Of a DNA stretch of 64,000 nt, positions 21,096-49,951 are shown piece after piece (positions within the stretch are counted from its first letter, which is position 1; each line of letters opens with the position of its first letter). A program made the translations under genes and the position numbers. This DNA comes from Streptomyces sp. NBC_01451 (lineage in GTDB: Bacteria > Actinomycetota > Actinomycetes > Streptomycetales > Streptomycetaceae), in assembly GCF_036227485.1 (NCBI RefSeq), contig NZ_CP109479.1:4092001-4156000 (forward strand). The letters are read 5' to 3'. Under the pieces are notes generated by a model, which saw nothing but the letters and a program-made list of their open reading frames with translations, ran no database searches and was not told the DNA's origin.

Positions 21096-21110
21096 CTGAC
21101 GGTTCGTCAT
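21096..21110. promoter_or_regulatory. Regulon palindrome, site A
   Basis: CTGACGGTTCGTCAT matches the consensus CTGACGGnnCGTCAG at all but the last position. It lies 44 bp upstream of the acyl-CoA dehydrogenase start. Confidence 0.8.
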
Positions 21111-21146
21111 ATTAGGGCGGACGCACCCTGCCGCACAGAGCCCGAG

Positions 21147-21161
21147 CTGATATACCGTCAG
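21147..21161. promoter_or_regulatory. Regulon palindrome, site B
   Basis: CTGATATACCGTCAG, with outer arms conserved, is centred 51 bp from site A and about 64 bp before the thiolase-fold gene start. It is the more degenerate of the pair. Confidence 0.65.
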
Positions 21162-21224
21162 ATTCATGCTGAGTCGACGACGAACGGGCAGGCGGCGAAC
21201 GGGCGGCCGGCGGGAGGCCGGACG

Positions 21225-22394
21225 GTGAGCCGGAAAGTCGCGATCGTCGGGGTCGCCCTCTCGGACTGCGGCCGGGTGGACGACGTGACCCCGTACGCAC
21301 TGCACGCACAGGCCGCCCGGCGGGCGCTGGCGGACTCGGGGCTCGGCCGGGAGGTGGTCGACGGTTTCGCGTCCGCGGGTCTCGGCACGCTGGCCCCCGC
21401 CGAGGTGGCCGAATACCTGGGCCTGCGCCCCACGTGGGTCGACTCCACCTCGGTCGGCGGTTCGACCTGGGAGGTCATGGCGGCGCACGCGGCCGACGCG
21501 ATAGCCGCGGGCCACGCCAACGCCGTACTCCTCGTCTACGGCTCGACAGCGCGCGCGGACGTCAAGGCGGGCCGCCGGACGGGGAACCTCTCCTTCGGCG
21601 CGCGCGGCCCGTTGCAGTTCGAGGTCCCGTACGGCCACACCCTGATCGCGAAGTACGCGATGGCCGCCCGCCGCCACATGCACGAATACGGCACGACGAT
21701 CGAGCAGTTGGCGTCGGTGGCGGTGCAGGCGAGAGCCAACGCGGCACTGAACCCGGAGGCGATGTTCCGGACACCGATCACCGTCGACGAGGTGCTCGAC
21801 GGCCCGATGATCGCGGACCCCTTCACCAAACTGCACTGCTGTCTGCGCTCCGACGGGGGCGCGGCGGTGCTGCTGGTGGCCGAGGAGTACGTGCGGGACT
21901 GCCGTACGCGGCCGGTGTGGATCCTCGGCACGGGTGAGCACGTCTCGCACGTGACCATGTCGGAGTGGGCCGACTTCACGGTGTCCCCGGCGGCGGTGAG
22001 CGGGCGGATCGCCTTCGAGCGGGCGGGAGTTCGGCCGCAGGAGATCGACTTCGCGGAGATCTACGACGCGTTCACCTATATGACGCTGGTGACGCTGGAG
22101 GACCTCGGCTTCTGCGGGAAGGGCGAGGGCGGGGAGTTCGTGGACGCCGCGAAGGGCCGCCTGCGTGTGGAGGGCGGCGAGCTGCCGGTCAACACCGACG
22201 GGGGCGGGCTGTCGGCCCAGCACCCGGGAATGCGGGGGCTGTTCCTGCTGGTGGAGGCGGTCAGGCAGTTGCGCGGGGACGGGGGTGCGCGGCAGGTCCG
22301 TACGGCCTCGGGAGGACCGCCGGAGCTCGGGGTGGCCTCCGGCACCGGGGGCTGGTTCTGCTCGTCCGGGACGGTGGTGCTGGGCCGGGGGTGA
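21225..22394 (+). CDS. Thiolase-fold lipid-transfer protein / Ltp2-like aldolase
   Basis: 389 aa with the two-domain thiolase fold (MSRKVAIVGVALSDCG; NTDGGGLSAQHPGMRG near 323-338). The position of the thiolase nucleophile reads STSVGGSTWEV and has no Cys. EIYDAFTYMTLVTLEDLGFC (Tyr280) matches the YD-F-T motif holding the catalytic Tyr of Ltp2-type retro-aldolases of steroid side-chain degradation (family knowledge). Those enzymes need a DUF35 partner, and one is encoded at 29121-29585. GTG 21225 has GGGAGG upstream; the frame is open further 5' but overlaps palindromes A and B. Predicted role: retro-aldol cleavage of a beta-hydroxyacyl-CoA (inference). Confidence 0.85.
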   Translation: MSRKVAIVGVALSDCGRVDDVTPYALHAQAARRALADSGLGREVVDGFASAGLGTLAPAEVAEYLGLRPTWVDSTSVGGSTWEVMAAHAADAIAAGHANAVLLVYGSTARADVKAGRRTGNLSFGARGPLQFEVPYGHTLIAKYAMAARRHMHEYGTTIEQLASVAVQARANAALNPEAMFRTPITVDEVLDGPMIADPFTKLHCCLRSDGGAAVLLVAEEYVRDCRTRPVWILGTGEHVSHVTMSEWADFTVSPAAVSGRIAFERAGVRPQEIDFAEIYDAFTYMTLVTLEDLGFCGKGEGGEFVDAAKGRLRVEGGELPVNTDGGGLSAQHPGMRGLFLLVEAVRQLRGDGGARQVRTASGGPPELGVASGTGGWFCSSGTVVLGRG

Positions 22395-22422
22395 GCGCTC
22401 GGGCGCCCCTCAGCGGTTCACG

Positions 22423-24489: not shown

Positions 24490-26760
<2,271 letters not shown>

Positions 26761-28458: not shown

Positions 28459-29121
28459 TCATGCTCCCGCGCCCTCCCCCGCCCCCTCGTCGGACTCCGG
28501 CTTCGGCTCCGGTCCCGGCTCGGGATCGGGGTCCTGGGCGATCCGTCCGTGCAGGTGCACGTCCCGGAAGACGTCCTGGCGTTGTTCCTCGAACATGGCG
28601 CCTCTCAGGGTTCCCTCGTACCGGAAGCCGCAGCGTTCGGCGACGCGGCAGGAGGCGTCGTGGCCGATGGCGTGGCCGAGTTGCAGACGGTTCAGGCCGA
28701 GGACGTCGAAGGCCCAGCGGGTGCCGAGGGCGAGGGCGCGGGTGGCGACGCGCCTGCCGCGGGCCTCGGGGAGGACCCAGTAGCCGATGTGGGCGTCGCG
28801 CATGAAGGGGTCTATGCCGTTGACGCCCAGGTGACCGAGTATCGCGCCGGTGACGACGTCCGTGACGCAGAAGGACACCCGGGTACCGTCCGCCGCGGTG
28901 CCGGAGCGGGTGCCGAGGGAGTCGCGGGCGCTGTCGAGGTCGGTGACCGGCTTCATCGGGGTGTTCCAGCGCCGGAAGTCCGGGTCGGTCAGGCCGCGCA
29001 GCCACGCGTCGACGTCGGTGTCCGAGTCCGCGCGCCACTGCCGCAACCGGAGTCCGTCGCCGAGCAGCTCGGGAAACTCGGGGACGGGGTGGGTGAGGGA
29101 CCGCTCATGGATATGGGCCAT
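28459..29121 (-). CDS. RimJ/RimL-type GNAT acetyltransferase
   Basis: This 220-aa RimJ-like GNAT domain has GDGLRLRQWRADSDTDV, IGYWVLPEARGRRVATRALALGTRWAF (acetyl-CoA loop) and HDASCRVAERCGFRYEGTLR. The C-terminal 20 residues are a Pro/Glu/Asp-rich tail (DPDPEPGPEPKPES). Its ATG shares one base with the stop of the DUF35 gene, implying translational coupling. Members acetylate protein N-termini or small amines. Its link to the acyl-CoA regulon may be only positional. Confidence 0.88.
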   Translation of the reverse strand: MAHIHERSLTHPVPEFPELLGDGLRLRQWRADSDTDVDAWLRGLTDPDFRRWNTPMKPVTDLDSARDSLGTRSGTAADGTRVSFCVTDVVTGAILGHLGVNGIDPFMRDAHIGYWVLPEARGRRVATRALALGTRWAFDVLGLNRLQLGHAIGHDASCRVAERCGFRYEGTLRGAMFEEQRQDVFRDVHLHGRIAQDPDPEPGPEPKPESDEGAGEGAGA

Positions 29122-29585
29122 CAGCCCATTGAAGCCCGTACGGCTGTACGACTCCCACCCCTGGGGCGGAAGACGGGCACACCCTCCCGAAAAGCCACCT
29201 CCAGCCCCATCCCGACCCCCAGCTCCCCCTCCGCACCGTCCACCACCTCGGTCATCATCCGGGGCCCCTCGTCGAGGTCGACGACGGCGGCCACGTACGG
29301 CGTGCGCTCCCCGAAGGGCGGCAGGTCGTTACGGTGCACGACGGACCAGGTGTAGAGCGTGGCCAGCCCGCTCGCGGTCTCCCACGTCACGTCCTCGCTC
29401 CAGCAGTACGGGCAGAACTCCCGGGGATAGTGATGAGCCCGCCCGCAGCCCCCGCAACGCCGTACGAGCAGCCGCCCCTCGGCCGCCGCGTCCCAGTAGG
29501 GCCGTGTGAAGGCATCGACCTCGGGGATGTCGAACCGGCCTCTGTCCGCGCCCACGCCCGTGCCCGTACTCACGCCCATGCCCAC
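29121..29585 (-). CDS. OB-fold zinc-ribbon DUF35 protein, likely partner of the thiolase-fold aldolase
   Basis: 154 aa. The N-terminal helix (DVDAFTRPYWDAAAEGRLLV-like) is followed by a rubredoxin-like zinc ribbon with Cys44, Cys47, Cys58 and Cys61 (CGGCG...CPYC) and an OB fold (ASGLATLYTWSVVHRNDLPPF, YVAAVVDLDEGPRMMTEVVD). In steroid-degrading actinobacteria a DUF35 protein or domain (ChsH2) is required for Ltp2 aldolase activity, so this is probably the partner of the product of 21225-22394. It is the first gene of a three-gene operon with palindrome C upstream. Confidence 0.88.
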   Translation of the reverse strand: MGMGVSTGTGVGADRGRFDIPEVDAFTRPYWDAAAEGRLLVRRCGGCGRAHHYPREFCPYCWSEDVTWETASGLATLYTWSVVHRNDLPPFGERTPYVAAVVDLDEGPRMMTEVVDGAEGELGVGMGLEVAFREGVPVFRPRGGSRTAVRASMG

Positions 29586-29608: not shown

Positions 29609-29623
29609 CTGACGGTGCGTCAG
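29609..29623. promoter_or_regulatory. Regulon palindrome, site C
   Basis: CTGACGGTGCGTCAG is a full match with perfect TGACG/CGTCA arms, 24 bp before the DUF35 start and in the divergent promoter with the FAD monooxygenase. Confidence 0.85.
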
Positions 29624-29767
29624 TTCAGTATGGCCTCACCGAGCCCCCACAACCAGGCCTCCCGCGTCACCGGCCCCACCCTCCTCCCCCACCGCCGTGA
29701 TCAATCCGCAACCGATTCCGGTCTTGCCCGAGACCCAACAAGTGAGCAGGTGCATACGCTCAGGCAC

Positions 29768-30943
29768 ATGGCCGACTCACCGACTTCGTCACCGTCAACG
29801 ACCGACCCCGTGTACGTCATCGGCGGCGGACCCGGTGGTCTCGCCGTCGCGTACGCGCTGCGGGCCCAGGGCGTGCGGGCCGTCGTGCTGGAGCGGGGCG
29901 ATCGGGTCGGGTCGTCCTGGCGGCGGCACTACGACCGGCTGCACCTGCACACCACCCGGCGGCTGTCCTCGCTGCCGGGGCTGGCGATGCCGCGCTCGTT
30001 CGGGCGGTGGGTGGCCCGGGACGACGTGGTCCGGTACCTGGAGAAGTACGCCGAGTACCACGAGCTGGAGGTCGTCACCGGCGTCGAGGTGTCCCGGGTC
30101 GAGCGGACCGCCGACGGCACCGGCTGGCTGCTGCACGCCACCGGCGGGCGCGAGCTGACCGGCAGCGCCGTCGTCGTCGCCACCGGGACCAACCACACAC
30201 CCCGGATCCCCGAGTGGTCCGGGCGCGACGCCTACCGCGGCGAGCTGCTGCACGCCGCCCAGTACCGCAACCCCGAGCCCTACGCCGGCCGTGACGTCCT
30301 CGTCGTCGGGATCGGCAACACCGGCGCCGAGATCGCCGTCGACCTGGTGGAGGGCGGGGCCTCACGGGTACGGCTGTCGGTGCGCACCGCCCCGCACATC
30401 GTGCGGCGGTCCACGGCCGGCTGGGCGGCCCAGTTCACGGGCATCCTCGTACGACGGCTGCCGGTGCGCCTCGTCGACCGGCTCGCCGGGCCGATGGCCA
30501 AGGTGAGCGTGCCCGACCTGTCGGCGCACGGGCTGCCCCGCCCCGACACCGGGCTGTACTCGCGCGTCACCGCCGGCTCGATCCCCGTCCAGGACGTCGG
30601 CCTCATCGACGCCGTCCGCAAGGGACGGGTCGAGATCGTGGCCGCCGTCGAGGGCTTCGAGGACGGCAAGGTCGTCCTCGCCGACGGCGGGCGCCTCGAA
30701 CCGGACGCCGTCATCGCCGCCACCGGATACCTCCGGGGCCTGGAAGGCCTCGTCGGCCACCTCGACGTACTCGACGCCCGCGGCAAGCCGGTCGTCCACG
30801 GGGCCCGTTCCCCGAAAAACGCGCCAGGGCTCTTCTTTCAGGGCTACACCAACCCCATCAGCGGCATGTTCCGGGAAATGGCGATCGACGCGGTACGCAT
30901 CGCGAAGGCGGTCGCACGACAGCAGTCCGCCGCCGCGAAGTAG
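29768..30943 (+). CDS. Flavin-containing monooxygenase (FMO/YUCCA-like)
   Basis: 391 aa. The N-terminal FAD motif GGGPGGLAVAYAL is followed by the NADPH motif VVGIGNTGAEIAVDLVEGG and the ATGTNHTPRIPEW and ATGY stretches of class B flavoprotein monooxygenases. Compare VYVIGGGPGG...GSSWRRHYDRLHLHTTRR, typical of the YUCCA-like group. ATG 29768 begins the conserved sequence. Class B enzymes do Baeyer-Villiger or heteroatom oxidation and use their own NADPH, so it does not need the flavin reductase at 34396. It belongs to the site C divergon. Likely role: oxygenation of a ring or ketone intermediate (inference). Confidence 0.9.
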   Translation: MADSPTSSPSTTDPVYVIGGGPGGLAVAYALRAQGVRAVVLERGDRVGSSWRRHYDRLHLHTTRRLSSLPGLAMPRSFGRWVARDDVVRYLEKYAEYHELEVVTGVEVSRVERTADGTGWLLHATGGRELTGSAVVVATGTNHTPRIPEWSGRDAYRGELLHAAQYRNPEPYAGRDVLVVGIGNTGAEIAVDLVEGGASRVRLSVRTAPHIVRRSTAGWAAQFTGILVRRLPVRLVDRLAGPMAKVSVPDLSAHGLPRPDTGLYSRVTAGSIPVQDVGLIDAVRKGRVEIVAAVEGFEDGKVVLADGGRLEPDAVIAATGYLRGLEGLVGHLDVLDARGKPVVHGARSPKNAPGLFFQGYTNPISGMFREMAIDAVRIAKAVARQQSAAAK

Positions 30944-31182: not shown

Positions 31183-33456
31183 ATGCTTGGATCAACCCAC
31201 GGCACCCTCACCACCGACTCCCGCCGGGCCCGGGTCATCGCCTGCGGCGAGCAGCCCTCGCCGGTCGTGCACGGCAGGCCCGCCGATGTCGACGACCTCG
31301 ACGTCAGCGGCCGACCACTGTACGCCGGCGTGCCCGATCTCGACCGCTTCTTCCGGCCCGAGTCCCTGGCGGTGGTCGGTGCCTCGGACGCCGAGGGGCG
31401 GCCGAACACCGGTATCACCCGGCAGTTGCTGGCGTGGGCCGAGCGGGTCGGTGCCCGGCTGCACCCGGTGCACCCGACCCGCGAGGCCGTCTTCGGCATA
31501 CCCTGCTTCCCCTCCGTCGCCGACCTGCCCGAGCAGATCGATCTCGCCGTGCTCCTGGTCGCCGACCCCCTTCCCGTGATCGAGCAACTCGCCGAGGCCA
31601 AGGTGAAGTTCGCCGTCGCCTTCGCCTCCGGGTTCGCGGAGACGGGTGAGGCGGGCGCGGAGGCACAGGCCCGCCTGTCCGCCGCCGTGCGCCGCTCCGG
31701 CATCCGTCTCCTCGGCCCGAACACCAACCTCAACGCCTTCGAGAACTTCCGCGAGGACCTCGACGGCCCCGCGATCGCCCTGATCACCCAGTCCGGCCAC
31801 CAGGGCCGGCCGGTCTTCGCCCTCCAGGAACTCGGCATCCGTCTCTCCCACTGGGCTCCCACCGGCAACGAGGCCGATCTGGAGACCGCCGACTTCATCT
31901 CCTACTTCTCCGAGCGGCCCGAGGTGGGCGCCATCGCCTGCTACGTCGAGGGCCTGAAGGACGGCCGCTCCTTTCTCCTCGCCGCCGACCGGGCCGCCCG
32001 GCGCGGAGTACCCGTCGTCGCGGTCAAGGTGGGCCGCACCGAGACCGGCGCCCGCACCGCCGCCTCCCACACCGGCAAACTGACCGGCGCCGACAGGGTG
32101 GTGGACGCGGCGATGCGGCAGTACGGGGTGATCCGCGTCGACGGACTCGACCAACTCCAGGACACCTCGGCCCTGTTGGCCCGCGCCCGCCGACCGCTCG
32201 CCGACGGGGTCGCCGTCTATTCGATCTCGGGCGGCACGGGCGCGCACTTCGCGGACCTGGCCACCGAGGCCGGGCTGAACCTGCCTCAGCTGTCCGCCGC
32301 CAAGCAGGCCGAACTGCACGAGTGGATACCCGGCTACCTGAACGTGGCCAACCCGATCGACAGCGGGGGCCATCCCGTCGGCGACTGGCGCGGTCGGAAG
32401 ATCATCGACGCGATCCTCGCCGACCCCGCGGTGGGCGTCCTGGTCTGCCCCATCACCGGTCCCTTCCCCCCGATGAGCGACAAGCTCGCGCAGGACCTCG
32501 TGGACGCGGCCGAGCAGACGGACAAGCTGGTGTGCGTGATCTGGGGCTCGCCGGTCGGCACGGAGGCGGCCTACCGCGAGACCCTGCTCGGCTCCTCCCG
32601 GGTGGCGACCTTCCGCACGTTCGCGAACTGCGTGACGGCTGTGCGCGCCCACCTCGACCACGCCCGGTTCACCGCCTCCTACCGCTCCCCCTTCGACGAG
32701 GCCCCGCGCACCCCGTCGCCCAGTTTCCGCAAGGCGCGGGCGCTGATGCGGCCGGGCGAGGCGCTGAGCGAGCACGCCGCCAAGCTGCTGCTGCGCGCGT
32801 ACGGGATCCGCGTGCCGCGCGAGCAGTTGGTGACCAGCGCGGCGGCGGCCGTCCGGGCGGCGGGGCTGGTGGGTTACCCGGTGGTGATGAAGGCGTCGGG
32901 CGGCCAGATCGCGCACAAGACGGAACTCGGGCTGGTGAAGATCGGGCTGACCTCGGCCAGCCAGGTCCGGGACGCCTATCGCGAGCTGACCGACATCGCC
33001 CGCTACGAGGGCGTCGACCTGGACGGCGTACTCGTGTGCCAGATGGTCGAGCGGGGCGTCGAGATGGTCGTCGGCGTCACGCACGACGACCTGTTCGGCC
33101 CGACGGTGACGGTGGGGCTCGGGGGCGTGCTCGTGGAGGTGCTCCAGGACACCGCCGTACGCGTGCCGCCCTTCGGTGAGGTGCAGGCGCGGGACATGCT
33201 GACGGAGTTGCGCGGGCGTGCCCTGCTCGACGGGGTCCGGGGGCGCCCCCCGGCCGACCTGGACGCGCTCGTCGAGGTCGTCCTGCGGGTGCAGCGCATG
33301 GCGCTGGAACTCGGGGACGAGCTGGCGGAGCTCGACATCAACCCGCTGATGGTGCTGCCCAGGGGCCAGGGAGCGGTGGCGCTGGACGCGCTGGCGGTGT
33401 GCGGGCCGGGCCCGGACGGCCCGCACGGCCAGGTCCTGAGCCAGCCGCCGCTCTAG
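31183..33456 (+). CDS. ADP-forming acyl-CoA synthetase (acetate--CoA ligase family)
   Basis: 757 aa with fused CoA-binding, succinyl-CoA-synthetase-like and ATP-grasp domains. The N-terminal CoA-binding part is SLAVVGASDAEGRPNTGI (about 61-78). The candidate phosphorylated histidine is His296 in SHTGKLTG. The C-terminal ATP-grasp is YPVVMKASGGQIAHKTELGLVKIGL and ELDINPLMVLPRG. It activates a carboxylate using ATP with release of ADP and phosphate. ATG 31183 with AGGAG about 11 bases upstream was preferred over earlier in-frame codons that lie in the operator region. It starts an operon with the enoyl-CoA hydratase, under palindromes D and E. Confidence 0.92.
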   Translation: MLGSTHGTLTTDSRRARVIACGEQPSPVVHGRPADVDDLDVSGRPLYAGVPDLDRFFRPESLAVVGASDAEGRPNTGITRQLLAWAERVGARLHPVHPTREAVFGIPCFPSVADLPEQIDLAVLLVADPLPVIEQLAEAKVKFAVAFASGFAETGEAGAEAQARLSAAVRRSGIRLLGPNTNLNAFENFREDLDGPAIALITQSGHQGRPVFALQELGIRLSHWAPTGNEADLETADFISYFSERPEVGAIACYVEGLKDGRSFLLAADRAARRGVPVVAVKVGRTETGARTAASHTGKLTGADRVVDAAMRQYGVIRVDGLDQLQDTSALLARARRPLADGVAVYSISGGTGAHFADLATEAGLNLPQLSAAKQAELHEWIPGYLNVANPIDSGGHPVGDWRGRKIIDAILADPAVGVLVCPITGPFPPMSDKLAQDLVDAAEQTDKLVCVIWGSPVGTEAAYRETLLGSSRVATFRTFANCVTAVRAHLDHARFTASYRSPFDEAPRTPSPSFRKARALMRPGEALSEHAAKLLLRAYGIRVPREQLVTSAAAAVRAAGLVGYPVVMKASGGQIAHKTELGLVKIGLTSASQVRDAYRELTDIARYEGVDLDGVLVCQMVERGVEMVVGVTHDDLFGPTVTVGLGGVLVEVLQDTAVRVPPFGEVQARDMLTELRGRALLDGVRGRPPADLDALVEVVLRVQRMALELGDELAELDINPLMVLPRGQGAVALDALAVCGPGPDGPHGQVLSQPPL

Positions 33457-33520: not shown

Positions 33521-34354
33521 ATGACTTCCTCCCCCGAAGAACCCGGTACGCCCGAAAAATCCGTTGAGTCATTGGTACTGCACGCCACTGACAATCACGT
33601 CTCGTGGATCACCCTCAACCGCCCCGAATCCCTCAACGCCATCACACCTGACCAGCGAGAACGCCTCATCCAGCTTTTCTCGGACGCCTCCGCCGACCCC
33701 GCAGTACGAGCCGTCGTCCTCACCGGCACGGGCCGGGGCTTCTGCACGGGTGCGGATCTGCGAGGAGGCGGGCAGGGCGCCGGAGAGCGGGTCGCCGGTG
33801 ACGTGGCCCGTGTCATCCGGCTCGGCGCCCAGCGCCTGATCTCCGCCGTCCTCGACTGCGAGAAGCCGGTCATCGCCGCCGTGAACGGTACGGCGGCCGG
33901 CCTCGGCGCCCATCTGGCCCTCGCCTGCGACCTGGTACTGGCCGCCGAACAGGCCCGGTTCATCGAGGTGTTCGTGCGCCGGGGGCTGGTCCCCGACGGC
34001 GGCGGCGCGTACCTCCTCCCCCGCCTGATCGGCCCCCAGCGCGCGAAGGAGCTGATGTTCTTCGGCGACGCGCTGACCGCCCCGGACGCCGAACGCCTGG
34101 GCCTGGTAAACCGGGTCGTCCCGGCCGAGGACCTCCACAAGACGGCCCGCGAATGGGCGGAGCGCCTCGCCACCGGCCCGACCCGCGCCCTCGCCCTCAC
34201 CAAGCAGCTCGTCAACGCCTCCCTCGACTCCGACCGCGCGACCGCCTTCGCCGCCGAGGCCACCGCCCAGGAGATCAACATGACGACGGCGGACGCGAGG
34301 GAAGGGGTCGCGAGCTTCGTGGAACGGCGGAGTCCGCGCTACGGCGGGAGCTGA
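33521..34354 (+). CDS. Enoyl-CoA hydratase/isomerase
   Basis: This 277-aa crotonase-fold protein includes WITLNRPESLNAITPDQRERL, the oxyanion-hole segment GRGFCTGADLRGGG, and AAVNGTAAGLGAHLALACDLVLA, where the first catalytic Glu of canonical hydratases is replaced by His (GAHLAL). The second site reads VPDGGGAYLLPRLIG, an Asp. This PaaG-like pattern fits isomerase or non-canonical hydratase activity. It lies 64 bp after the synthetase, in the same direction and probably the same transcript. Confidence 0.9.
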   Translation: MTSSPEEPGTPEKSVESLVLHATDNHVSWITLNRPESLNAITPDQRERLIQLFSDASADPAVRAVVLTGTGRGFCTGADLRGGGQGAGERVAGDVARVIRLGAQRLISAVLDCEKPVIAAVNGTAAGLGAHLALACDLVLAAEQARFIEVFVRRGLVPDGGGAYLLPRLIGPQRAKELMFFGDALTAPDAERLGLVNRVVPAEDLHKTAREWAERLATGPTRALALTKQLVNASLDSDRATAFAAEATAQEINMTTADAREGVASFVERRSPRYGGS

Positions 34355-34375: not shown

Positions 34376-34390
34376 CTGACGCTCCGTCAG
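34376..34390. promoter_or_regulatory. Regulon palindrome, site F
   Basis: CTGACGCTCCGTCAG has perfect arms and ends 5 bp before the chosen ATG of the flavin reductase gene. That implies either a leaderless or very short leader, or a later start codon. Confidence 0.82.
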
Positions 34391-34395: not shown

Positions 34396-35058
34396 ATGGA
34401 ACCTATGTTGGGACAAGCGGGAATGGCGGCGGCTGCCGTCCGGTATCTCAGGTCTGCCGGGGCACCGACGGTGGCGCCCACGGTCGCGGGGCCCGTCGAG
34501 GCGCTGCCCCGGCCGGACTTACGGGCCGTCGGCGAGGACGAGCGGGCACCGGTCGCCCCGGCCGAATTCCGGCGCGTACTGGGGAACTTCGCGACCGGTG
34601 TCACCGTCGTCACCGCACCGGCAGCCGAAGGCGAGACCTCGCCCGCCGGCTTCGCCTGCCAGTCCTTCGCCGCTCTCTCCCTCGACCCGCCCCTGGTGGT
34701 CTTCATGGTCGGGCGTACGTCGAGGACGTGGCCGCTCATCGCCCGCGCGGGCGTCTTCTGCGTCAACGTACTGGGCGACGGGCAGGGCGAGTTGTGCCGC
34801 GGGTTCGCGCGGAGCGGCGCCGACAAGTTCGCGGGCGTCGCGTACGACGCGGCGCCGGTCTCGGGCTCCCCGCGCCTCACGGGCGCCGCCGCCTGGATCG
34901 ACTGCACGATCCACGCCGTACACACGGGAGGCGACCACCTGATCGTCGTAGGCCGGGTGGAGGCGCTGGGGGCGGGGGACGACGAAGGCACTCCGCTGCT
35001 GTTCCACCGTGGGCGGTTCACCCGGCCCGTCGGCGAGCGGGACGTCCCCGGTCCATGA
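34396..35058 (+). CDS. Flavin reductase (HsaB-like, FMN-binding split barrel)
   Basis: 220 aa. The flavin reductase domain starts near residue 50 (FRRVLGNFATGVTVVTAPAAEG), followed by SPAGFACQSFAALSLDPPLVVFMVGRTSRTWPLIARAGVFCVNVLGDGQ and the C-terminal HLIVVGRVEALG. Family members supply reduced FMN or FAD to a separate two-component monooxygenase such as HsaA, which itself has an acyl-CoA-dehydrogenase fold, so one of the FadE-like proteins here could be its partner (inference). The start is ambiguous: in-frame ATGs at 34396, 34405 and 34423. Palindrome F lies immediately upstream. Confidence 0.88.
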   Translation: MEPMLGQAGMAAAAVRYLRSAGAPTVAPTVAGPVEALPRPDLRAVGEDERAPVAPAEFRRVLGNFATGVTVVTAPAAEGETSPAGFACQSFAALSLDPPLVVFMVGRTSRTWPLIARAGVFCVNVLGDGQGELCRGFARSGADKFAGVAYDAAPVSGSPRLTGAAAWIDCTIHAVHTGGDHLIVVGRVEALGAGDDEGTPLLFHRGRFTRPVGERDVPGP

Positions 35059-40866: not shown

Positions 40867-41916
40867 TCAGAAGGTCAGCACCCCCCGGGCCACCCGCCCC
40901 GCCTCCGCGTCCCCGACCGCCTTCTCGAAGTCCTCGACGGGGTACGTCTCCGTCACCAACTCGTCGAGCAGCAGCCGCCCTTCGCGGTACAGGTCGGCGT
41001 AGAGCGGGATGTCCCGCTGGGGGCGGGAGGAGCCGTAGCGGCAGCCGAGGATCGACTTGTCCAGGAACATCGACGAGACGACGAAGGACGCCTCGGCCGT
41101 GGCCGAGGGGACGCCGAGCAGGACCGCCTGGCCGTGCCGGTCGAGCAGGTCGACGGCCTGCCGGATGAGTTCGACCCGGCCGACGCACTCGAAGACATGG
41201 TCCGCGCCCGTCGGCAGCACGTCCCGTACGCCCTCCGTCGAGGTCAGGAAGTGGGTCGCGCCGAACCGCCGGGCCATCGCCTCCTTCGCCGGGTTGGCGT
41301 CCACGGCGACGATCCGCGAGGCGCCCGCGATCCGCGCGCCCTGGAGGACGTTCAGCCCGACCCCGCCCGTGCCGATCACCACGACGCTGTCCCCGCGGTC
41401 CACCCGGGCCCGGTTGAGCACGGCACCCACGCCGGTCAGCACCCCGCACCCGATGAGCGCGGCCGACGGCATCGGGATGTCCTTCGGGATGCGTACCGCC
41501 TGCACGGCCTTCACCACCGTGCGTTCCGCGAAGGCGGAGTTGGACGCGAACTGGAACACCGGCCGGCCGCCCCGCGTGAAGGGCCGCCCCGGCCGCCCGA
41601 TCGACTGCCGGCACATGGTCGGCCGCCCCCGGTCGCACTCCGCGCACGCCCCGCAGTTCGCGAGCGTCGACAGGGCCACATGGTCCCCGGGCGCGACATG
41701 CGTGACACCGGCCCCGACGGCCTCCACCACGCCCGCGCCCTCATGGCCGAGCACGACGGGGACGGGGAAGGGGATGGTCCCGTCCACCACCGACAGGTCG
41801 CTGTGGCACAGGCCCGCCGCCGAGATCGCGACCAGCACCTCTCCGGCTCCCGGCTCCCTCACCTCCAGGTCGTCGACGACCTGGATCTGCTTACCGTCGA
41901 ACAGCACACCGCGCAT
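40867..41916 (-). CDS. Zinc-dependent alcohol dehydrogenase (MDR, class III-like)
   Basis: 349 aa. The catalytic zinc ligands are visible in GLCHSDLSVVDG (Cys38) and GHEGAGVVEAVG (His-Glu). The structural zinc CxxCxxC-type run is NCGACAECDRGRPTMC. The Rossmann motif is VVVIGTGGVGLNVLQGARIAGASRIVAVDANP. This pattern fits AdhD/mycothiol-dependent-type NAD dehydrogenases. Its ATG shares one base with the stop of the acyl-CoA dehydrogenase gene. It is the last gene of the SDR-FadE-ADH operon controlled from palindrome G. Predicted role: oxidise a pathway alcohol or aldehyde. Confidence 0.92.
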   Translation of the reverse strand: MRGVLFDGKQIQVVDDLEVREPGAGEVLVAISAAGLCHSDLSVVDGTIPFPVPVVLGHEGAGVVEAVGAGVTHVAPGDHVALSTLANCGACAECDRGRPTMCRQSIGRPGRPFTRGGRPVFQFASNSAFAERTVVKAVQAVRIPKDIPMPSAALIGCGVLTGVGAVLNRARVDRGDSVVVIGTGGVGLNVLQGARIAGASRIVAVDANPAKEAMARRFGATHFLTSTEGVRDVLPTGADHVFECVGRVELIRQAVDLLDRHGQAVLLGVPSATAEASFVVSSMFLDKSILGCRYGSSRPQRDIPLYADLYREGRLLLDELVTETYPVEDFEKAVGDAEAGRVARGVLTF

Positions 41917-43067
41917 CAGACGACTCCCTTGGGCTCCCTGGGCAGACCGAGCACGCGCTCGGCGATGATCGTGCGCTGGATCTGGTCGGAGCCGCCGTAG
42001 ATCGTGTCGGCCCGGGAGAACATGAACAGGTGCTGCGCGGCGTCGAGTTCGTACGGCGCGGCGGCCGACCACTCCACCGGGCCGACCCCGGCCGCCGCGC
42101 CCCGCACGAGCATCGCCAGCTCTCCCAGCCGCTGGTGCCACCCGCCCCACAGCAGTTTCGCCACGCTTGGCGCCCCGGCGTCCCCCGAACTGCCCAGTGT
42201 GCGCAGGGCGTTCCAGCGCATCACCCGCAACTCGGCCCACTGCCGCACGAGTCGCTCCCGTACGACGGGATCGGCCACCGCACCGCTGTCGACGGCCGCC
42301 CGCACCACTCGCTCCAACTCCCGGGCGAACCCGATCTGTTGGGCGAGTGTGGAAACCCCCCGCTCGAACCCGAGCAGGCTCATCGCGACGCCCCAGCCGG
42401 CGCCCTCGGCCCCGACGAGGTGCTCCGCGCGTGCGTGTGCCCCGTCGAAGAAGACCTCGTTGAATTCGCTGGTCCCGGTCAGCTGCCGGATCGGCCGGAC
42501 CTCGATCCGCCCCGGCTGGTCCATCGGAACGAGCAGAAAACTGAGCCCGTGATGACGGACGGACCCCGCTTCCGTCCGGGCGAGCACGAAGCACCAGTCC
42601 GCCTCGTGGGCGAGGGACGTCCAGATCTTCTGCCCGGTGATCCGGTACGTCCCGTCGGCGGCCCGCTCGGCCTTCGTGCTCACCCCTGCCAGGTCCGAGC
42701 CCGCGCCGGGCTCGCTGTATCCCTGGCACCAGAGTTCCTCGCCCGCCGCGACCGGCGGCAGGAACCGGGCCCGCTGTTCATCGGTACCGTGCGCGAGAAG
42801 CGTCGGGGCGAGAAGATTCTCCCCGATGTGCCCGGACCGCGCAGGCGCCCCCGACCGGGCGTACTCCTCGGCCCAGACGACCTGTTGGGTAAGACTGGCG
42901 GCCCGGTTCCCGAACCCGGTCTCCCCCCAGGAAAGCCCGATCCACCCGGCCTTCCCGAGAATCCGCTCCCATCCGCGCCGATCAAGATCCCCATCGACAT
43001 GCGCACCAAGCCAGGCCCGAACTTCCGCCCGAAACTCCTCATCCCCGACGCCGAATCCAAACTCCAC
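41916..43067 (-). CDS. Acyl-CoA dehydrogenase (alpha-type FadE)
   Basis: 383 aa. It has the flavin-binding segment LWCQGYSEPGAGSDLAGVSTKAERAADGTYRITGQKIWTS and the C-terminal TIYGGSDQIQRTIIAERVLGLPREP. The usual catalytic YEG reads YGG, so any base must come from elsewhere, as in FadE28-like subunits of heterotetrameric dehydrogenases. It probably pairs with a beta-type subunit such as 19820-21052 or 46572-47477. It lies 106 bp downstream of the SDR gene in the same operon, with a dispersed repeat in the gap. Confidence 0.9.
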   Translation of the reverse strand: MEFGFGVGDEEFRAEVRAWLGAHVDGDLDRRGWERILGKAGWIGLSWGETGFGNRAASLTQQVVWAEEYARSGAPARSGHIGENLLAPTLLAHGTDEQRARFLPPVAAGEELWCQGYSEPGAGSDLAGVSTKAERAADGTYRITGQKIWTSLAHEADWCFVLARTEAGSVRHHGLSFLLVPMDQPGRIEVRPIRQLTGTSEFNEVFFDGAHARAEHLVGAEGAGWGVAMSLLGFERGVSTLAQQIGFARELERVVRAAVDSGAVADPVVRERLVRQWAELRVMRWNALRTLGSSGDAGAPSVAKLLWGGWHQRLGELAMLVRGAAAGVGPVEWSAAAPYELDAAQHLFMFSRADTIYGGSDQIQRTIIAERVLGLPREPKGVV

Positions 43068-43173
43068 AGGGCTCTCCTCTCAACACAGGACGCGACCGAC
43101 GCCCTAGGGGCGCGGGGAACTGCGCGATCAACCACAACGAACCCGCACCCGCCAGCCAACCCGCACTCCCGAG
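43068..43173. repeat. Dispersed Streptomyces intergenic repeat between SDR and FadE genes
   Basis: The stretch CCCTAGGGGCGCGGGGAACT with following GCGCGATCAACC around 43102-43135 is another of the short repeats scattered between Streptomyces genes (recalled). It has a small hairpin (CCCTAGGG) and may act as a partial terminator inside the operon. Confidence 0.6.
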
Positions 43174-44094
43174 TTACTGGGCGTTCGGCCGCGCCCCACC
43201 CCGCGCCGCCTCCTCCATCCGCTCCAACTGCAAAAGCATCGGCATCGGGTCCACCCCCACCGACCCCGGCAGGAACTCCGCGATCGTCTCCGGTGTCCAC
43301 CCGCCGGAGGCAGACGCATACGCCGCCCGCAACTCCCTCGGCTGCGCCCACACCGCGATCTTCGGCCCCGCGACCGTGTACACCTGCCCGGTGATCCGCT
43401 GCTCCTTCGCCCGGTCGGACAGCAGGTACACGACCAGGGCCGCCACGTCCTCCGGTTCGCCGATCTCCGCCAGTTCCATGGGCACGTTCGCCGACATCCG
43501 CGTACGCGCGACCGGCGCCACCGCGTTGGCGGTCACCCCGTACTTGTGGAGGCCCAGCGCGGCACTCCGTACGAGCGAGATGATCCCGCCCTTCGCCGCG
43601 CTGTAGTTGGCCTGCGACACCGACCCCTGGTGGTTTCCGCTGGTGAAGCCGATCAGCGTCCCGGCCCGCTGCTTCCGCATCACCGCCGAAGCCGCCCGGA
43701 ACACGGTGAACGTGCCCTTCAGATGAGTGGCGACGACCGGGTCCCACTCCTCCTCGGACATGTTGAACAGCATCCGCTCGCGCAGGATCCCGGCGACGCA
43801 CACGACACCGTCCAGGCGCCCGTACGAGGACAGCGCCACGTCCACGACCCGCTGGCCGCCGGCCATGGTGGACACGTCGTCGGCCACCGCGACCGCGTCG
43901 CCGCCCGCCGCCTCGATCTCCTTGACGATGCCGTCGGCGATCTCGCTCGTCGGCGAGCCGCCGTCGATGGAGACCCCGTAGTCGTTGACGACGACGCGCG
44001 CTCCCTCGGCTGCCGCGCCCAGTGCCACCGCCCGGCCGATCCCCCGGCCGGCACCCGTCACGGCGACCACCTTGCCTGCCAAGAAGTTCCCCAT
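43174..44094 (-). CDS. Short-chain dehydrogenase/reductase, likely 3-hydroxyacyl-CoA dehydrogenase
   Basis: 306 aa with NAD-binding TGAGRGIGRA (about 14-23), NDYGV, and the catalytic YSAAKGG (Tyr/Lys). The SIDGGSPTSEIADGIVKEIEAAGGDAVAVADDVS region and the about 50-residue C-terminal extension (AAYASASGGWTPETIAEFLPG) resemble the dehydrogenase unit of multifunctional beta-oxidation proteins (MFE-2/ChsB1-like). It is first in its operon, with palindrome G between it and the divergent cyclase gene. Likely role: NAD-dependent oxidation of a beta-hydroxyacyl-CoA. Confidence 0.92.
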   Translation of the reverse strand: MGNFLAGKVVAVTGAGRGIGRAVALGAAAEGARVVVNDYGVSIDGGSPTSEIADGIVKEIEAAGGDAVAVADDVSTMAGGQRVVDVALSSYGRLDGVVCVAGILRERMLFNMSEEEWDPVVATHLKGTFTVFRAASAVMRKQRAGTLIGFTSGNHQGSVSQANYSAAKGGIISLVRSAALGLHKYGVTANAVAPVARTRMSANVPMELAEIGEPEDVAALVVYLLSDRAKEQRITGQVYTVAGPKIAVWAQPRELRAAYASASGGWTPETIAEFLPGSVGVDPMPMLLQLERMEEAARGGARPNAQ

Positions 44095-44200: not shown

Positions 44201-45136
44201 ATGTCATTGCCGGCCGAGTTCCACGCCATCGCCAAACGCGTGAACAACTGGGGGCGTTGGGGGGCGGACGACGAGATCGGCACCCTCAACCTCATCACCG
44301 ACGCCGTCGTGCGCGAGGCCGCCGCGACCGTCCGCACCGGGCACCGCGTCCCCCTCGCCCTCCCGCTGGAGCAGGACGGCGTCCAGACGGGAGCGATTCC
44401 GGGCCGGGTGAACCCCGTGCACTCCATGGTCCAGATCAACCAGGAACTGTTCGGACCGCCGGGCGGCGGAACCGTCGCGACCAGCGACGACATCGTGACC
44501 ATGGGACTCCAGTGCGCGACCCACTGGGACGCCCTCGCTCACGCCTCCCACTCCGGGAAGCTCTACAACGGGCGTCCGGCGGACACGATCACGGCCCACG
44601 GCGGCGCCGAGTTCACCGGCATCGACAAGGCCCGGCACATCGTCTCGCGCGGGGTGCTGCTGGACGTGGCCCGCGCGCGGGGCGTCGACCGGCTCGACGG
44701 GGGGCACGCGGTGACCCCGGAGGACCTGGACGCGGCGGAGGAACTGGCGGGCACACGCGTGCGTGCCGGTGACATCGTGCTCGTACGGACCGGGCAGATC
44801 CAGGTGTACCTGGCGGGCGACAAGCACGGGTACATGTATCCCTCGCCCGGGCTGTCGGTCCGTACGCCGGAGTGGTTCCACGCGCGGGATGTGGCGGCCG
44901 TCGCGAACGACACGCTCACCTTTGAGATATTTCCACCTGAATCGAATGATCTATGGATGCCCGTACACGCGCTCGACCTGGTGGAGATGGGGATGCCGCA
45001 GGGCCAGAACTGGAATCTCGAAAAGTTGTCCACAGCCTGTGGACAAGAGGGCCGGTACGAGTTCCTGCTGTCGGCGACGCCGGAGCCGTTCACGGGGGCC
45101 ACGGGTGGTCCCGTGGCCCCCGTGGCGATCCTCTGA
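44201..45136 (+). CDS. Cyclase-family protein (kynurenine-formamidase-like metal hydrolase)
   Basis: 311 aa. The metal-binding HWDALAH motif (GLQCATHWDALAHASHSG) and the LVRTGQIQVYL and DLVEMGMPQGQNWNLEKLS segments match the cyclase/KynB-like family that hydrolyses cyclic or formylated substrates. The N-terminus WGRWGADDEIGTLNLIT is the standard family start. The ATG has AGGAAGGA upstream. It is divergent from the SDR operon and shares palindrome G. Probable role: ring or lactone hydrolysis in the pathway (inference). Confidence 0.9.
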   Translation: MSLPAEFHAIAKRVNNWGRWGADDEIGTLNLITDAVVREAAATVRTGHRVPLALPLEQDGVQTGAIPGRVNPVHSMVQINQELFGPPGGGTVATSDDIVTMGLQCATHWDALAHASHSGKLYNGRPADTITAHGGAEFTGIDKARHIVSRGVLLDVARARGVDRLDGGHAVTPEDLDAAEELAGTRVRAGDIVLVRTGQIQVYLAGDKHGYMYPSPGLSVRTPEWFHARDVAAVANDTLTFEIFPPESNDLWMPVHALDLVEMGMPQGQNWNLEKLSTACGQEGRYEFLLSATPEPFTGATGGPVAPVAIL

Positions 45137-46571: not shown

Positions 46572-47477
46572 TCACCGCGCCTCGGCCAGTAACGCGGCGG
46601 CGAGCACCTCCTCACATTCCGTCACCGAGCCGGGCCGCCGGGCCCGTACCCACGCCCGCTTCAGATACAGATGGACGTCCGACTCCCAGGTGAAGCCCAT
46701 CCCGCCGTGCACCTGGAGGCAGTCACGGGCGCCACGCACGGCCGCCTCGTCGGCGAGCAGCCGGGCCGCCGCGATGTCCGCCGGATCTACGGTGACGGCA
46801 GCCGCGTACACCGCCGCCCGCGCCACCTCGACCCGGACCAGGATCCCGGCGCACAGATGCTGCACCGCCTGGAAGGCCCCGATCGGCCGTCCGAACTGCT
46901 CGCGGGTCCGGGCGTGTTGCGCGGCCAGCTCACACACCCGGGCGGCGGTGCCGAGCTGCTCGGCGGCGGTGAGGAGAGACGTCAGGAGTACGTCCGTACG
47001 GTCGCCGGAGACCGGGGCGGTGACCCGGTGCAGGGGCGTGAGCGGATCCGCCGACCGTATCGGCACCGCTCCCGCGGCATCCCCTCGTACGGCGTCGGCC
47101 GCCTCCAGCCACTCCACCACCCCGCCGCCGTCGACGGCGGTCACCACCGTCCCGCCCTCGGCCGCCCCCGGCACCTCCCCCGCCGCGAGGTGCGTGGCGA
47201 TCAGCGGCCCGGGCAGCAGTGCGCGCCCCGCCTCCTCGAACACCAACACCGCCTCGGGCAGGCCGAGTCCGACCCCGCCCGCCGTCTCCGGCAGCCGCAG
47301 CGAGAAGAACCCGGCGCTCCCCAGCTCCCGCCACAGCCTCCGGTCCAGCTCGGGTACCTCGCCCGCCTCATCGGCCCCCACGGCCGCCCGCAGCCGCTCG
47401 CGCCCGAACCGCGCCGCCAGCAGCTCTCGTACGCCCGTCCGCAACGCCCGCTGATCCTCGGTGAGTTGGAAGCGCAT
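46572..47477 (-). CDS. Short acyl-CoA dehydrogenase subunit (beta-type FadE)
   Basis: 301 aa, about 80 shorter than a normal acyl-CoA dehydrogenase, with a weak middle domain. N-terminal MRFQLTEDQRALRTGVRELLAARFG and C-terminal RDCLQVHGGMGFTWESDVHLYLKRAW match ChsE2/FadE29-like subunits, which are catalytically incomplete alone. It is the third gene of the amidohydrolase-FadE-FadE operon, 9 bp after the alpha-type subunit, so the two most likely form one alpha2-beta2 dehydrogenase. Confidence 0.88.
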   Translation of the reverse strand: MRFQLTEDQRALRTGVRELLAARFGRERLRAAVGADEAGEVPELDRRLWRELGSAGFFSLRLPETAGGVGLGLPEAVLVFEEAGRALLPGPLIATHLAAGEVPGAAEGGTVVTAVDGGGVVEWLEAADAVRGDAAGAVPIRSADPLTPLHRVTAPVSGDRTDVLLTSLLTAAEQLGTAARVCELAAQHARTREQFGRPIGAFQAVQHLCAGILVRVEVARAAVYAAAVTVDPADIAAARLLADEAAVRGARDCLQVHGGMGFTWESDVHLYLKRAWVRARRPGSVTECEEVLAAALLAEAR

Positions 47478-47486
47478 GTGCGAAGG

Positions 47487-48620
47487 TCACCGTCCTTTCG
47501 GCAGTCCGAGAACGCGTTCGGCCACGATGCTGTGCTGGATCTGCGAGGTGCCGGCGGCGATGGTGTACGACAGCGAGGACAACCGGTCGAGCACCCAGGG
47601 CTGTTCGAGATCCAGCGCCGCGCCGCCGTCCCCGAGGACCTCGGCAGCCGCCTCGTACAGCTCCTGCCGGGCGTGCGAGTACCGCAGCTTGAAGACCGAC
47701 CCGCCGACCCCGGGCACGCCCTCGCTCGCCTCGCTCACGTTCCACTGGGTCAGCCGCCACAGCGCCCGGAACTCGGCGTTGAGCCGCCCGAGCCGCCGCC
47801 GCAGTACGGGGTCGTCCCAGCGACCGTTCTCCCGTGCGGCCAGGGCGAGTTCGCCGAGCACCCGGCGGCAGGCGACCACCTCCCCGACGAACGCCGTACC
47901 GCGTTCGAAGGACAGCGTCACCATCGTCACGCGCCAGCCGTCGTTCTCCTCGCCGACCCGGTTGGCGACGGGCACGCGGACCTCGTCGAGGAAGACCTCG
48001 GCGAACTCGTTCGACCCGGCGAGGGTGCGCAGCGGCCGTACGGTGATGCCCGGCGCGTCCATGGGCATGGCCAGCCAGGTGATCCCGCGGTGCCTGGGCG
48101 CGTCCGGGTCGGTCCGCACCAACAGCTCGCACCAGTCGGCGACTTCGGCGTGCGAGGTCCAGATCTTGGAGCCGCTCACCACGTATGCGTCGCCGTCACG
48201 CCGTGCGCGGGTGCGCAGTGCCGCGAGGTCCGAACCGGCGTCCGGCTCGCTGAACCCCTGGCACCAGACCTCCTCGCCGCGCAGCACCGGCGGCAGCCAG
48301 CGCGCCTTCTGCTCCTCGGTCCCCTCGGCGGCGACGGTCGGCCCGGCGTGCAGCAGCCCGACGAAGTTGGCGCCCACATAGGGCGCGCCGGCCTTCTCGG
48401 TCTCCTCCAGGAAGATCATCCGTACGGCGGGGTCGGCGCCCCAGTGGACCTCGCCGTACCCGGCGTCGTACAGCGTCCGCTGCCAGCCGAGGTCGTACGC
48501 GCGCCGTCCGGGCCAGTCGTCGGGCGACGGCTTGGCGGGCAGCGAGGGAAGGACCTTCCCCAGCCACTCCCTCAACCGTGCTCGGAACTCCGCCTCTTGG
48601 GGGGTGTCGGAGAGGTCCAC
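47487..48620 (-). CDS. Acyl-CoA dehydrogenase (alpha-type FadE)
   Basis: 377 aa. FAD-site segment EEVWCQGFSEPDAGSDLAALRTRARRDGDAYVVSGSKIWTS and the end SYTIAAGTSQIQHSIVAERVLGLPKGR, with no YEG Glu. GTG 48620 overlaps the amidohydrolase stop by one base (TAGTG), so the longer open frame upstream belongs to the opposite-phase amidohydrolase. It pairs with the adjacent beta-type subunit. Expected reaction: FAD-dependent alpha,beta-dehydrogenation of a bulky or branched acyl-CoA (family knowledge, substrate inferred). Confidence 0.9.
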   Translation of the reverse strand: MDLSDTPQEAEFRARLREWLGKVLPSLPAKPSPDDWPGRRAYDLGWQRTLYDAGYGEVHWGADPAVRMIFLEETEKAGAPYVGANFVGLLHAGPTVAAEGTEEQKARWLPPVLRGEEVWCQGFSEPDAGSDLAALRTRARRDGDAYVVSGSKIWTSHAEVADWCELLVRTDPDAPRHRGITWLAMPMDAPGITVRPLRTLAGSNEFAEVFLDEVRVPVANRVGEENDGWRVTMVTLSFERGTAFVGEVVACRRVLGELALAARENGRWDDPVLRRRLGRLNAEFRALWRLTQWNVSEASEGVPGVGGSVFKLRYSHARQELYEAAAEVLGDGGAALDLEQPWVLDRLSSLSYTIAAGTSQIQHSIVAERVLGLPKGR

Positions 48621-49813
48621 TACTTGTCCAGGTCGAGGCCGAGCATGCGGATGGCGTTGCCGCGCATCAGCTTGTGGACGGTCTCGTCGTCGAGGCCCTT
48701 CACATGGTCGAGGGCGACCTCCTTGGTGTGCGGGAAGGTCGAGTCGACGTGCGGGTAGTCGGTCTCGAAGGTGGCGTTGTCCCGGCCGACGACGTCGATC
48801 GAGGCGACGCCGTGCTTGTCGCGGAAGAAGCAGCAGAAGATCTGCCGGTAGTAGTAGGTGGAGGGGGGTTCGGGGATCAGATCCCTGACCCCGCCCCACG
48901 CGCGGTGCTCCTCCCACACGTCGTCGGCGCGCTCAAGGGCGTACGGGATCCAGCCCATCTGCCCTTCGCTGTAGGCGAGTTTGAGCGCCGGGAACTTCAC
49001 CAGGACGCCGCTGAACAGGAAGTCCATCATCGACGCCATCGCGTTGTTGAAGCTCAGCGCGGCCTGGACGGCGGGCGGCGCGTCCGGGGAGGCGGCGGGC
49101 ATCTGGCTGCTGCTGCCGATGTGCATGTTGACGACCGTCCCGGTCTCCTCGCACACCGCGAAGAACGGATCCCAGTAGCCGGAGTGGATCGACGGCAGCC
49201 CGAGGTGCGTCGGGATCTCCGAGAACGTCACCGCCCGTACCCCGCGTGCCGCGTTGCGCCGGATCTCCGCGACCGCCAGCTCGATGTCCCACAGTGGGAT
49301 CAGGCACAGCGGGATCAGCCGGCCGCCGCTGTCGCCGCACCACTCCTCCACCATCCAGTCGTTGTAGGCGCGCACGCAGGCGAGGGCGACCTCCTTGTCG
49401 TGGGCCTCGGCGAAGGTCTGCCCGCAGAACCGCGGGAAGGTGGGGAAGCAGAGGGAGCCCTCGACGTGGTTGAGGTCCATGTCCGCGAGCCTGGCCTTCG
49501 GGTCCCAGCAGCCGCGCCGCATCTGCTCGCGCGTGATGCCGTCGAGGGTCATCTCGTCCCGGGAGAACCCGACGGCCGCGATGATCCGCTTGTACGGGAA
49601 CTGCAGGTCCTCGTACTGCCACCAGTCGGTGACCGGGCCGTCGGGGTCGGTCGTGATCCGGTATTTGCCGCCCACGTAGGCGAGTTCGCCGATGCCGGCG
49701 GTGAAGGGCTTCGGCCCCCTGTCCCGGTACTTGGCCGGCAGCCAGGTCTCGAAGAGGTGCGCGGGTTCGATCACGTGGTCGTCGACGCTGATGATGCGGG
49801 GCAGTTCGGTCAT
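48620..49813 (-). CDS. Amidohydrolase-family metalloenzyme (Amidohydro_2)
   Basis: 397 aa. It begins IISVDDHVIEPAHLFETWLP (the DxH metal-binding strand) and has the typical LADMDLNHVEGSLCFPTFPRFCGQTF and FETDYPHVDSTFPHT segments of the amidohydrolase-2 group, which includes decarboxylases and ring hydrolases such as ACMSD-like enzymes. It is first gene of a three-gene operon whose promoter holds palindrome H and faces the acyl-CoA ligase. It could open a ring or hydrolyse a lactone in the pathway. Confidence 0.92.
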   Translation of the reverse strand: MTELPRIISVDDHVIEPAHLFETWLPAKYRDRGPKPFTAGIGELAYVGGKYRITTDPDGPVTDWWQYEDLQFPYKRIIAAVGFSRDEMTLDGITREQMRRGCWDPKARLADMDLNHVEGSLCFPTFPRFCGQTFAEAHDKEVALACVRAYNDWMVEEWCGDSGGRLIPLCLIPLWDIELAVAEIRRNAARGVRAVTFSEIPTHLGLPSIHSGYWDPFFAVCEETGTVVNMHIGSSSQMPAASPDAPPAVQAALSFNNAMASMMDFLFSGVLVKFPALKLAYSEGQMGWIPYALERADDVWEEHRAWGGVRDLIPEPPSTYYYRQIFCCFFRDKHGVASIDVVGRDNATFETDYPHVDSTFPHTKEVALDHVKGLDDETVHKLMRGNAIRMLGLDLDK

Positions 49814-49848
49814 GGGTCCCCTCCGCCTGGCCAGCCGGTGATGATTAT

Positions 49849-49863
49849 CTGACGGTCCGTCAG
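49849..49863. promoter_or_regulatory. Regulon palindrome, site H
   Basis: CTGACGGTCCGTCAG, the best match to the consensus with perfect arms, 36 bp before the amidohydrolase start. Confidence 0.87.
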
Positions 49864-49936
49864 TTCTGCACCTCTAGAAGGTTAGTCCCGCACCTATGGA
49901 CCGACAAGGCGTGAAGCCCTACGCTCCCCGCACGAT

Positions 49937-49951
49937 CTGATGGACCGTCAG
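49937..49951. promoter_or_regulatory. Regulon palindrome, site I
   Basis: CTGATGGACCGTCAG, one arm mismatch, ends 15 bp before the acyl-CoA ligase start. With site H it frames the divergent promoter. Confidence 0.8.

Follow-up and report, generated by a model that had tools for sequence, protein, structure and literature searches.

The question raised by this locus is whether a short palindrome, repeated upstream of acyl-CoA-type operons, could act as the operator of one dispersed regulon and, if so, which protein would bind it. The locus is a 64,000-nucleotide stretch of Streptomyces sp. NBC_01451 (from here on, the window), corresponding to positions 4092001–4156000 of a single 10.27-Mb contig; genes were called with a purpose-written codon-usage script, their edges are approximate and some names were assigned by eye. 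Taken together, our data suggest, with a probability of roughly 80%, that the repeats are operators of consensus AnCTGACGGnCCGTCAGnT for a TetR-family repressor carrying a TetR_C_38 domain, which would govern a weakly autoregulated, sterol-type acyl-CoA regulon distinct from those of KstR and KstR2. What the sequences establish is that these operators form a set, that the set is conserved and linked with the TetR gene, and that its members stand at acyl-CoA and sterol genes.

An earlier sequence-only reading had listed nine copies of the literal sequence CTGACGGnnCGTCAG in the window. All nine positions are indeed inverted repeats, but the literal sequence is not common to them, since six carry mismatches. 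Specifically, CTGACGNNNCGTCAG is exact at 29609, 34376 and 49849 (3/9), shows one mismatch at 21096, 31111, 31135, 44117 and 49937 (5/9) and two mismatches at a single copy, 21147, at whose equivalent position many relatives carry CTGATGTACCGTCAG. As had been proposed, all nine copies (9/9) lie in catabolic promoters, upstream of acyl-CoA-type operons, and no site with at most one mismatch lies at the interspersed unrelated genes of the window. The predicted operators are reported below (window coordinates, no strand assigned).

21096..21110: operator in the divergent FadE-F420 reductase / thiolase promoter; 28.7 bits; same promoter in relatives
21147..21161: second operator in the FadE-F420 reductase / thiolase promoter; 2 mismatches; 24.2 bits
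29609..29623: operator in the DUF35 / FAD monooxygenase promoter; exact; 27.0 bits
31111..31125: operator 1 of the acyl-CoA synthetase promoter; 24.2 bits
31135..31149: operator 2 of the acyl-CoA synthetase promoter; 25.1 bits; 24 bp from operator 1
34376..34390: operator in the flavin reductase promoter; exact; 26.8 bits
44117..44131: operator in the divergent short-chain dehydrogenase/reductase (SDR)-FadE-alcohol dehydrogenase / cyclase promoter; 21.0 bits
49849..49863: operator in the amidohydrolase-FadE-FadE promoter; exact; 29.8 bits
49937..49951: operator in the acyl-CoA ligase promoter; 25.8 bits

By plain pattern count the excess in the window is modest, with 12 core matches (at most one mismatch) against a mean of 4.2 and a maximum of 10 in 100 shuffles; at larger scale it is decisive. 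The extent of 29 kb given by the sequence-only reading turned out to be too narrow, the window holding about half of a larger set. Of the 18 pattern matches with at most one mismatch in a 160-kb region around the window, all but one (17) are intergenic and precede catabolic-type genes; the exception, at 4157768, falls within a gene. Nine of these 17 cluster sites (4037757, 4070669, 4070729, 4071605, 4075230, 4075272, 4081084, 4089181 and 4089208) are left of the window, and the earlier reading thus covered roughly one half of this cluster. In the whole genome, the 13-bp core TGACGNNNCGTCA occurs 72 times versus 4 for the reversed pattern, and sites with one mismatch number 153 versus 29 reversed. 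The neighbourhoods of all 72 core sites and of some others were examined; on our own reading, 14 of 21 exact 15-mers precede catabolic- or redox-type genes, 6 are in genes and the last one could be placed in neither group. Two near-identical site pairs, 5055026 with 9969854 and 422488 with 903507, possibly represent duplicated DNA and not independent operators.

A matrix trained on 113 unique sites, all near the TetR gene in named relatives, was then applied to the genome under study, covering the cluster and 0.78 Mb outside it. It returned 18 sites of at least 18.0 bits in the 160 kb, distributed over 12 intergenic regions; none of the 18 falls within a called gene, each precedes catabolic-type genes, and some are 30–70 kb from the TetR gene. 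This result, together with the genome-wide inspection, supports the single acyl-CoA catabolic regulon that the sequence-only reading had envisaged. The next-best scores in the same 160 kb were 12.9 bits (in a gene), 11.9 bits (at the TetR start) and 10.0 bits (in a gene), and 30 Markov nulls of 160 kb together gave 7 matches of at least 16 bits. Chance or composition was rejected on the basis of the shuffles, the 72 versus 4 count, the other-species matrix and the Markov nulls.

The predicted operator consensus, AnCTGACGGnCCGTCAGnT, was derived from 427 distinct oriented 35-mers with at most one mismatch, sites between divergent genes being taken both ways. Its outer A/T and inner G/C positions are conserved. 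In addition, 155 of 455 oriented flanks have a TAnnnT box that, always at the same offset, reaches over the left edge of the operator; other frequent offsets are +23 (90 hits) and +6 (70).

The most likely regulator, judged from sequence and absent from the earlier reading, is a TetR_C_38 protein whose gene carries a weak operator-like element at its own start.

18510..19157, plus strand: TetR-family regulator (TetR_N + TetR_C_38), 215 aa; most likely operator-binding protein
18502..18516, no strand assigned: weak operator-like CTGACGGCATGACAG over the TetR start codon; 2 mismatches; 11.9 bits

Its C-terminal domain matches TetR_C_38 (PF19352) with E 3.3e-74 and 247.8 bits, against a gathering score of 23.9, and its N-terminal helix-turn-helix domain matches PF00440 with E 4.8e-06 and 26.7 bits, against a cut-off of 24. 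The predicted model is all-helical (pLDDT 91.8) and its nearest solved fold is EthR (TM-score 0.88 by target length), acyl-CoA-bound FadR and DesT structures appearing lower in the list of fold matches; a long hydrophobic ligand would fit the model. EthR controls an FMO-type monooxygenase gene, and an FMO-like gene likewise lies near the window TetR, but the two proteins share 18% identity and the EthR operator and regulon size differ from those proposed here. Each position of the recognition-helix region, A49–F60, is invariant or nearly so among 52 aligned sequences. At the TetR start, the box TAAGCTGACnnCATGAC is found in 110/110 Streptomyces loci, with the same layout as the TAnnnT-operator overlap, the weak operator following directly on a -10-like TAAGCT. 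The promoter and start region (window 18450–18516) is almost invariant over the Streptomyces loci, and its layout looks like that of a leaderless mRNA. Two other TetR genes were considered as owners of the sites and rejected, namely that beside the isochorismatase-like gene (window 23078–23650) and that at 6099–6788: no site with at most two mismatches precedes either gene.

The nearest named relatives of the window TetR are from Streptomyces, and the TetR_C_38 regulator was found in 101/101 sampled genomes of the genus (our own and 100 further). Among 80 named Streptomyces loci, the 68 offering at least 12 kb around the TetR gene were read and the 12 shorter ones dropped; sites surround the gene in 68/68, amounting to 272 sites with at most one mismatch versus 2 for the reversed control, 268 of the 272 being outside genes. 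Over 80 kb, G036 carries 13 sites and G092 carries 15, mostly at corresponding promoters. In a class sample of 246 genomes the regulator was present in 45, 22 of them Streptomyces. Leaving out Streptomyces and one family (f13, discussed below), at least five exact sites were counted in 10/18 genomes with the regulator versus 2/201 (G244 and G246) without it.

Outside Streptomyces, 17 of 23 genomes bearing the regulator were read for an upstream site (G121, G151, G166, G181, G214 and G224 were left out). The deep orthologues, found in Pseudofrankia and Parafrankia (the f18 genomes concerned) and in families f12 and f14 (some f14 members being a Mycobacteriales bacterium or a Frankiaceae bacterium), are about 50% identical to the window TetR. 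In all 12 genomes read of the 14 in these groups (G205, G226, G195, G292, G336, G154, G203, G135, G113, G167, G234 and G111), the 350 bp upstream of the TetR gene contain a site of at least 16 bits, while the reversed control reached at best 7.0 bits. In G135 and G203, 27 of 28 distinct exact sites are outside genes, most of them before catabolic-type genes. Of the 39 genes downstream, 27 have a homologue among 330 proteins examined of our own genome, and for 21 of these 27 the best homologue belongs to the predicted regulon, which contributes 52 of the 330 proteins in a set enriched for regulon regions. Moreover, in G135 and G111 the TetR gene is near genes for an IpdA-type CoA transferase, an EchA20-like crotonase and IpdE2-like dehydrogenases. 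The transferase matches 6co6, a CoA-transferase alpha subunit that we take to be IpdA, with E 3e-93; the IpdE2 NCBIfam scores in these clusters do not reach the cut-off, and we assigned the names IpdB, IpdC and EchA20 by our own sequence reading.

The sequence-only reading did not recognise the motif as the KstR or KstR2 operator, and scans of the cluster and ipd regions led us to reject both identities. The palindrome differs from AnCAAGnnCTTGnT, the KstR2 operator motif, and no KstR2-type operator was detected with this motif in the regions scanned. It differs likewise from the KstR operator, given as TnnAACnnGTTnnA in PMC1995591. In the 160-kb cluster region TnnAACnnGTTnnA has one match, inside a gene, and none at the target promoters, and the KstR equivalog NF033703 is not among the four weak NCBIfam matches of the window TetR. 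The two systems are alike in that KstR is a TetR repressor acting through a short palindrome at many dispersed promoters of lipid and cholesterol genes, its sites partly overlapping the -10 box and occurring also in its own promoter (PMC1995591). Besides the operator, they differ in that a separate KstR-like protein exists here, a TetR encoded at 7.0117 Mb (154.6 bits on the KstR equivalog model, against a cut-off of 280; its called start may be too late). KstR-type palindromes TnnAACnnGTTnnA occur at three promoters near this gene (7009667, 7012686 and 7024606), two of which are shared with a CTGACG operator: at 7009667/7009765 and 7024541/7024606 the two site types are 98 and 65 bp apart, which suggests joint control.

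As regards KstR2, its regulon takes in ipdAB, ipdC and echA20 (PMC5380842). The TetR_C_38 gene lying in an ipdAB/echA20-like cluster with operators in G135 and G111 is a likeness, whereas the operator is another one and the Streptomyces ipd-type cluster is outside the set. The latter, in our genome at 8785636–8794182, comprises CYP-like, SDR, two FadE-like, EchA20-like, IpdC-like and IpdB-like genes and an IpdA homologue 59% identical to that of G135. A further palindrome, Lcin1, was found by footprinting at steroid genes, among the bile-acid genes of Nocardioides simplex; its sequence, TCCCGGT[C/G]ACCGGGA, is unrelated to the new operator (PMC7593942). TetR-controlled catabolic regulons are known as a kind; neither this motif nor its regulator nor the gene set is mentioned in the open-licence literature searched by titles and abstract openings.

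The genes placed under the predicted operators in the window are as follows.

19311..21052, minus strand: acyl-CoA dehydrogenase (19820–21052) and F420H2 quinone reductase-like protein (19311–19820), by Pfam; NCBIfam IpdE2 200 bits, below the cut-off of 450
21225..22394, plus strand: thiolase-fold protein of SCP2/lipid-transfer type, by Pfam; solved thiolase 4u4e E 1.3e-96, lipid-transfer protein 6ok1 E 2.6e-42
29121..29585, minus strand: DUF35 protein (ChsH2-type zinc ribbon + OB fold), by Pfam
29615..30943, plus strand: FMO-like flavin monooxygenase, by Pfam; start uncertain, the open reading frame at 29615 beginning inside the operator and an alternative start being called at 29810
31183..33456, plus strand: ADP-forming-type acyl-CoA synthetase, by NCBIfam, below cut-offs
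33521..34354, plus strand: enoyl-CoA hydratase family protein, by NCBIfam, below cut-offs
34471..35058, plus strand: flavin reductase domain protein, by Pfam
40867..44094, minus strand: SDR (43174–44094), acyl-CoA dehydrogenase (41916–43067) and zinc alcohol dehydrogenase (40867–41916), by NCBIfam, below cut-offs
44201..45136, plus strand: putative cyclase (PF04199), by Pfam
46572..49813, minus strand: amidohydrolase (48620–49813), by Pfam, and acyl-CoA dehydrogenases (47487–48620 and 46572–47477), both by NCBIfam, below cut-offs
49966..51522, plus strand: acyl-CoA ligase, by NCBIfam, below cut-offs
1..718, plus strand: final part of an alpha/beta hydrolase-like gene (name given by eye), collinear with genes of thiolase, DUF35-like and crotonase-like type, whose operators at 4089181 and 4089208 are left of the window

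The link with sterols comes from remote sites, which precede choA, fadA5, LLM, DUF35 and other genes. The cholesterol oxidase gene choA, 3.2 Mb away, has two upstream sites 30 bp apart, and its product matches a solved cholesterol oxidase with E 2e-233; fadA5 has one upstream site and its product matches FadA5 with E 4e-148. Considering the 30 best loci for each gene, our own included, an upstream site of at least 14 bits is present in 29/29 readable choA loci (about 73% identity or higher) and 28/28 readable fadA5 loci, one and two loci respectively having been dropped as too short; the reversed control gave 0/29 and 0/28. FadA5 is found in 79/101 Streptomyces genomes, and the median number of exact sites is 14 with FadA5 versus 6.5 without it (Mann-Whitney p 4e-7, kinship ignored). 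For choA, 68/101 genomes have a relative with E 1e-120 or better.

Starting from these data, we propose that a TetR_C_38 dimer would bind each palindrome, often overlapping or abutting the -10 box, and block RNA polymerase at the promoters of the 4.04–4.14 Mb cluster and of remote genes, choA and fadA5 among them. Release of the repressor, which would also weakly control its own gene, may be brought about by an intermediate, either a CoA thioester or an acid, of sterol-type or related polycyclic or terpenoid catabolism. Here binding, repression rather than activation, the ligand and the substrate are what we infer.

Several observations weigh against this account. Genome-wide, 29 of the 72 bare core matches are inside script-called genes, and the bare pattern therefore has background. 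Fewer than five exact sites were counted in 8/18 genomes with the regulator outside Streptomyces and f13, and its more distant relatives (G112, G134, G130, G327 and G275) have no upstream site, the best score being 10.5 bits. Some sites of G135 and G203 precede genes without an evident catabolic role. At 11.9 bits and with 2 mismatches, the site of the Streptomyces TetR gene itself is weak, and it may be conserved because of the start codon. In G010, G043, G037 and G328 the TetR gene, the start box and a nearby FMO-like flavoprotein gene are kept, and in the 20–40 kb read around TetR neither the other catabolic genes nor any site with at most one mismatch was found (4/4); since these species have lost the regulon at the locus but not the regulator, the latter may have an additional role. 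Finally, family f13 (G112, G134, G151, G166 and G181) holds 109–218 exact CTGACGNNNCGTCAG per genome versus 0–1 reversed, and these more than 100 matches must have some other reason. Among 30 of the 135 sites of G112 that were inspected, 13 are in genes and 9 between convergent genes, which points to something else than an operator set; several of these repeats hold both stop codons of convergent genes, and the f13 repeats are perhaps a terminator or repeat element.

A broader proposal, which we consider quite possible while placing it slightly below even odds, is that TetR_C_38 and AnCTGACGGnCCGTCAGnT form a third actinobacterial sterol regulator, acting in much of Streptomyces over a sterol side-chain-type acyl-CoA regulon with cholesterol oxidase, and that in some Frankia relatives and allied families it took over the ipd genes for rings C and D, KstR2-controlled elsewhere. 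A competing account of the regulon, possible though rather doubtful, keeps the same operator and TetR protein with a non-sterol substrate, such as terpenoid, branched or cyclic acids, choA and fadA5 being side members. The sterol link rests on few remote genes, and the substrate of the large cluster could be a different one: the main cluster showed no diagnostic sterol-ring gene (kstD, kshA and hsaC were not searched in our genome), its FadE, SDR and ligase proteins score below the NCBIfam cut-offs of named enzymes, and scanning of our own ipd-type cluster (8.785–8.794 Mb) revealed no such operator, nor KstR- or KstR2-type sites. According to a 2016 survey, a single Streptomyces among more than 50 has the cholesterol pathway (PMC4810484), which is at odds with a simple sterol reading. 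A non-sterol substrate is, however, harder to reconcile with the operator kept at every choA and fadA5 locus read, with the two promoters shared with KstR-type sites and with the regulator lying within an ipdAB/echA20-like cluster in G135 and G111.

It is improbable that TetR_C_38 is a bystander and that the palindrome is bound by a different regulator, for instance the KstR-like TetR at 7.0117 Mb. The latter is within about 13 kb of three remote sites, and some species retain the TetR_C_38 gene with no sites at the locus, but separate KstR-type TnnAACnnGTTnnA sites are present nearby, and copies of the palindrome accompany TetR_C_38 in 68/68 Streptomyces loci and upstream in 12/12 Frankia-related and allied genomes. 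An RNA hairpin or terminator, to which an inverted repeat with a short loop and the 9/30 G112 copies between convergent genes might point, is hardly credible and was rejected for Streptomyces, where many copies overlap a -10-like box and where the repeat is found between divergent genes, conserves outer A/T and inner G/C positions and stands before gene starts at 18/18 strong cluster sites.

In conclusion, our analysis provides a TetR protein found in all 101 sampled Streptomyces with a likely operator and a likely function, and predicts that scattered acyl-CoA genes, including those for cholesterol oxidase and FadA5, act together. If the ligand is a sterol catabolite, the sensor-operator pair could serve as a biosensor. 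In addition, it becomes testable whether Streptomyces possess a sterol side-chain route that surveys with mycobacterial reference genes may have missed.

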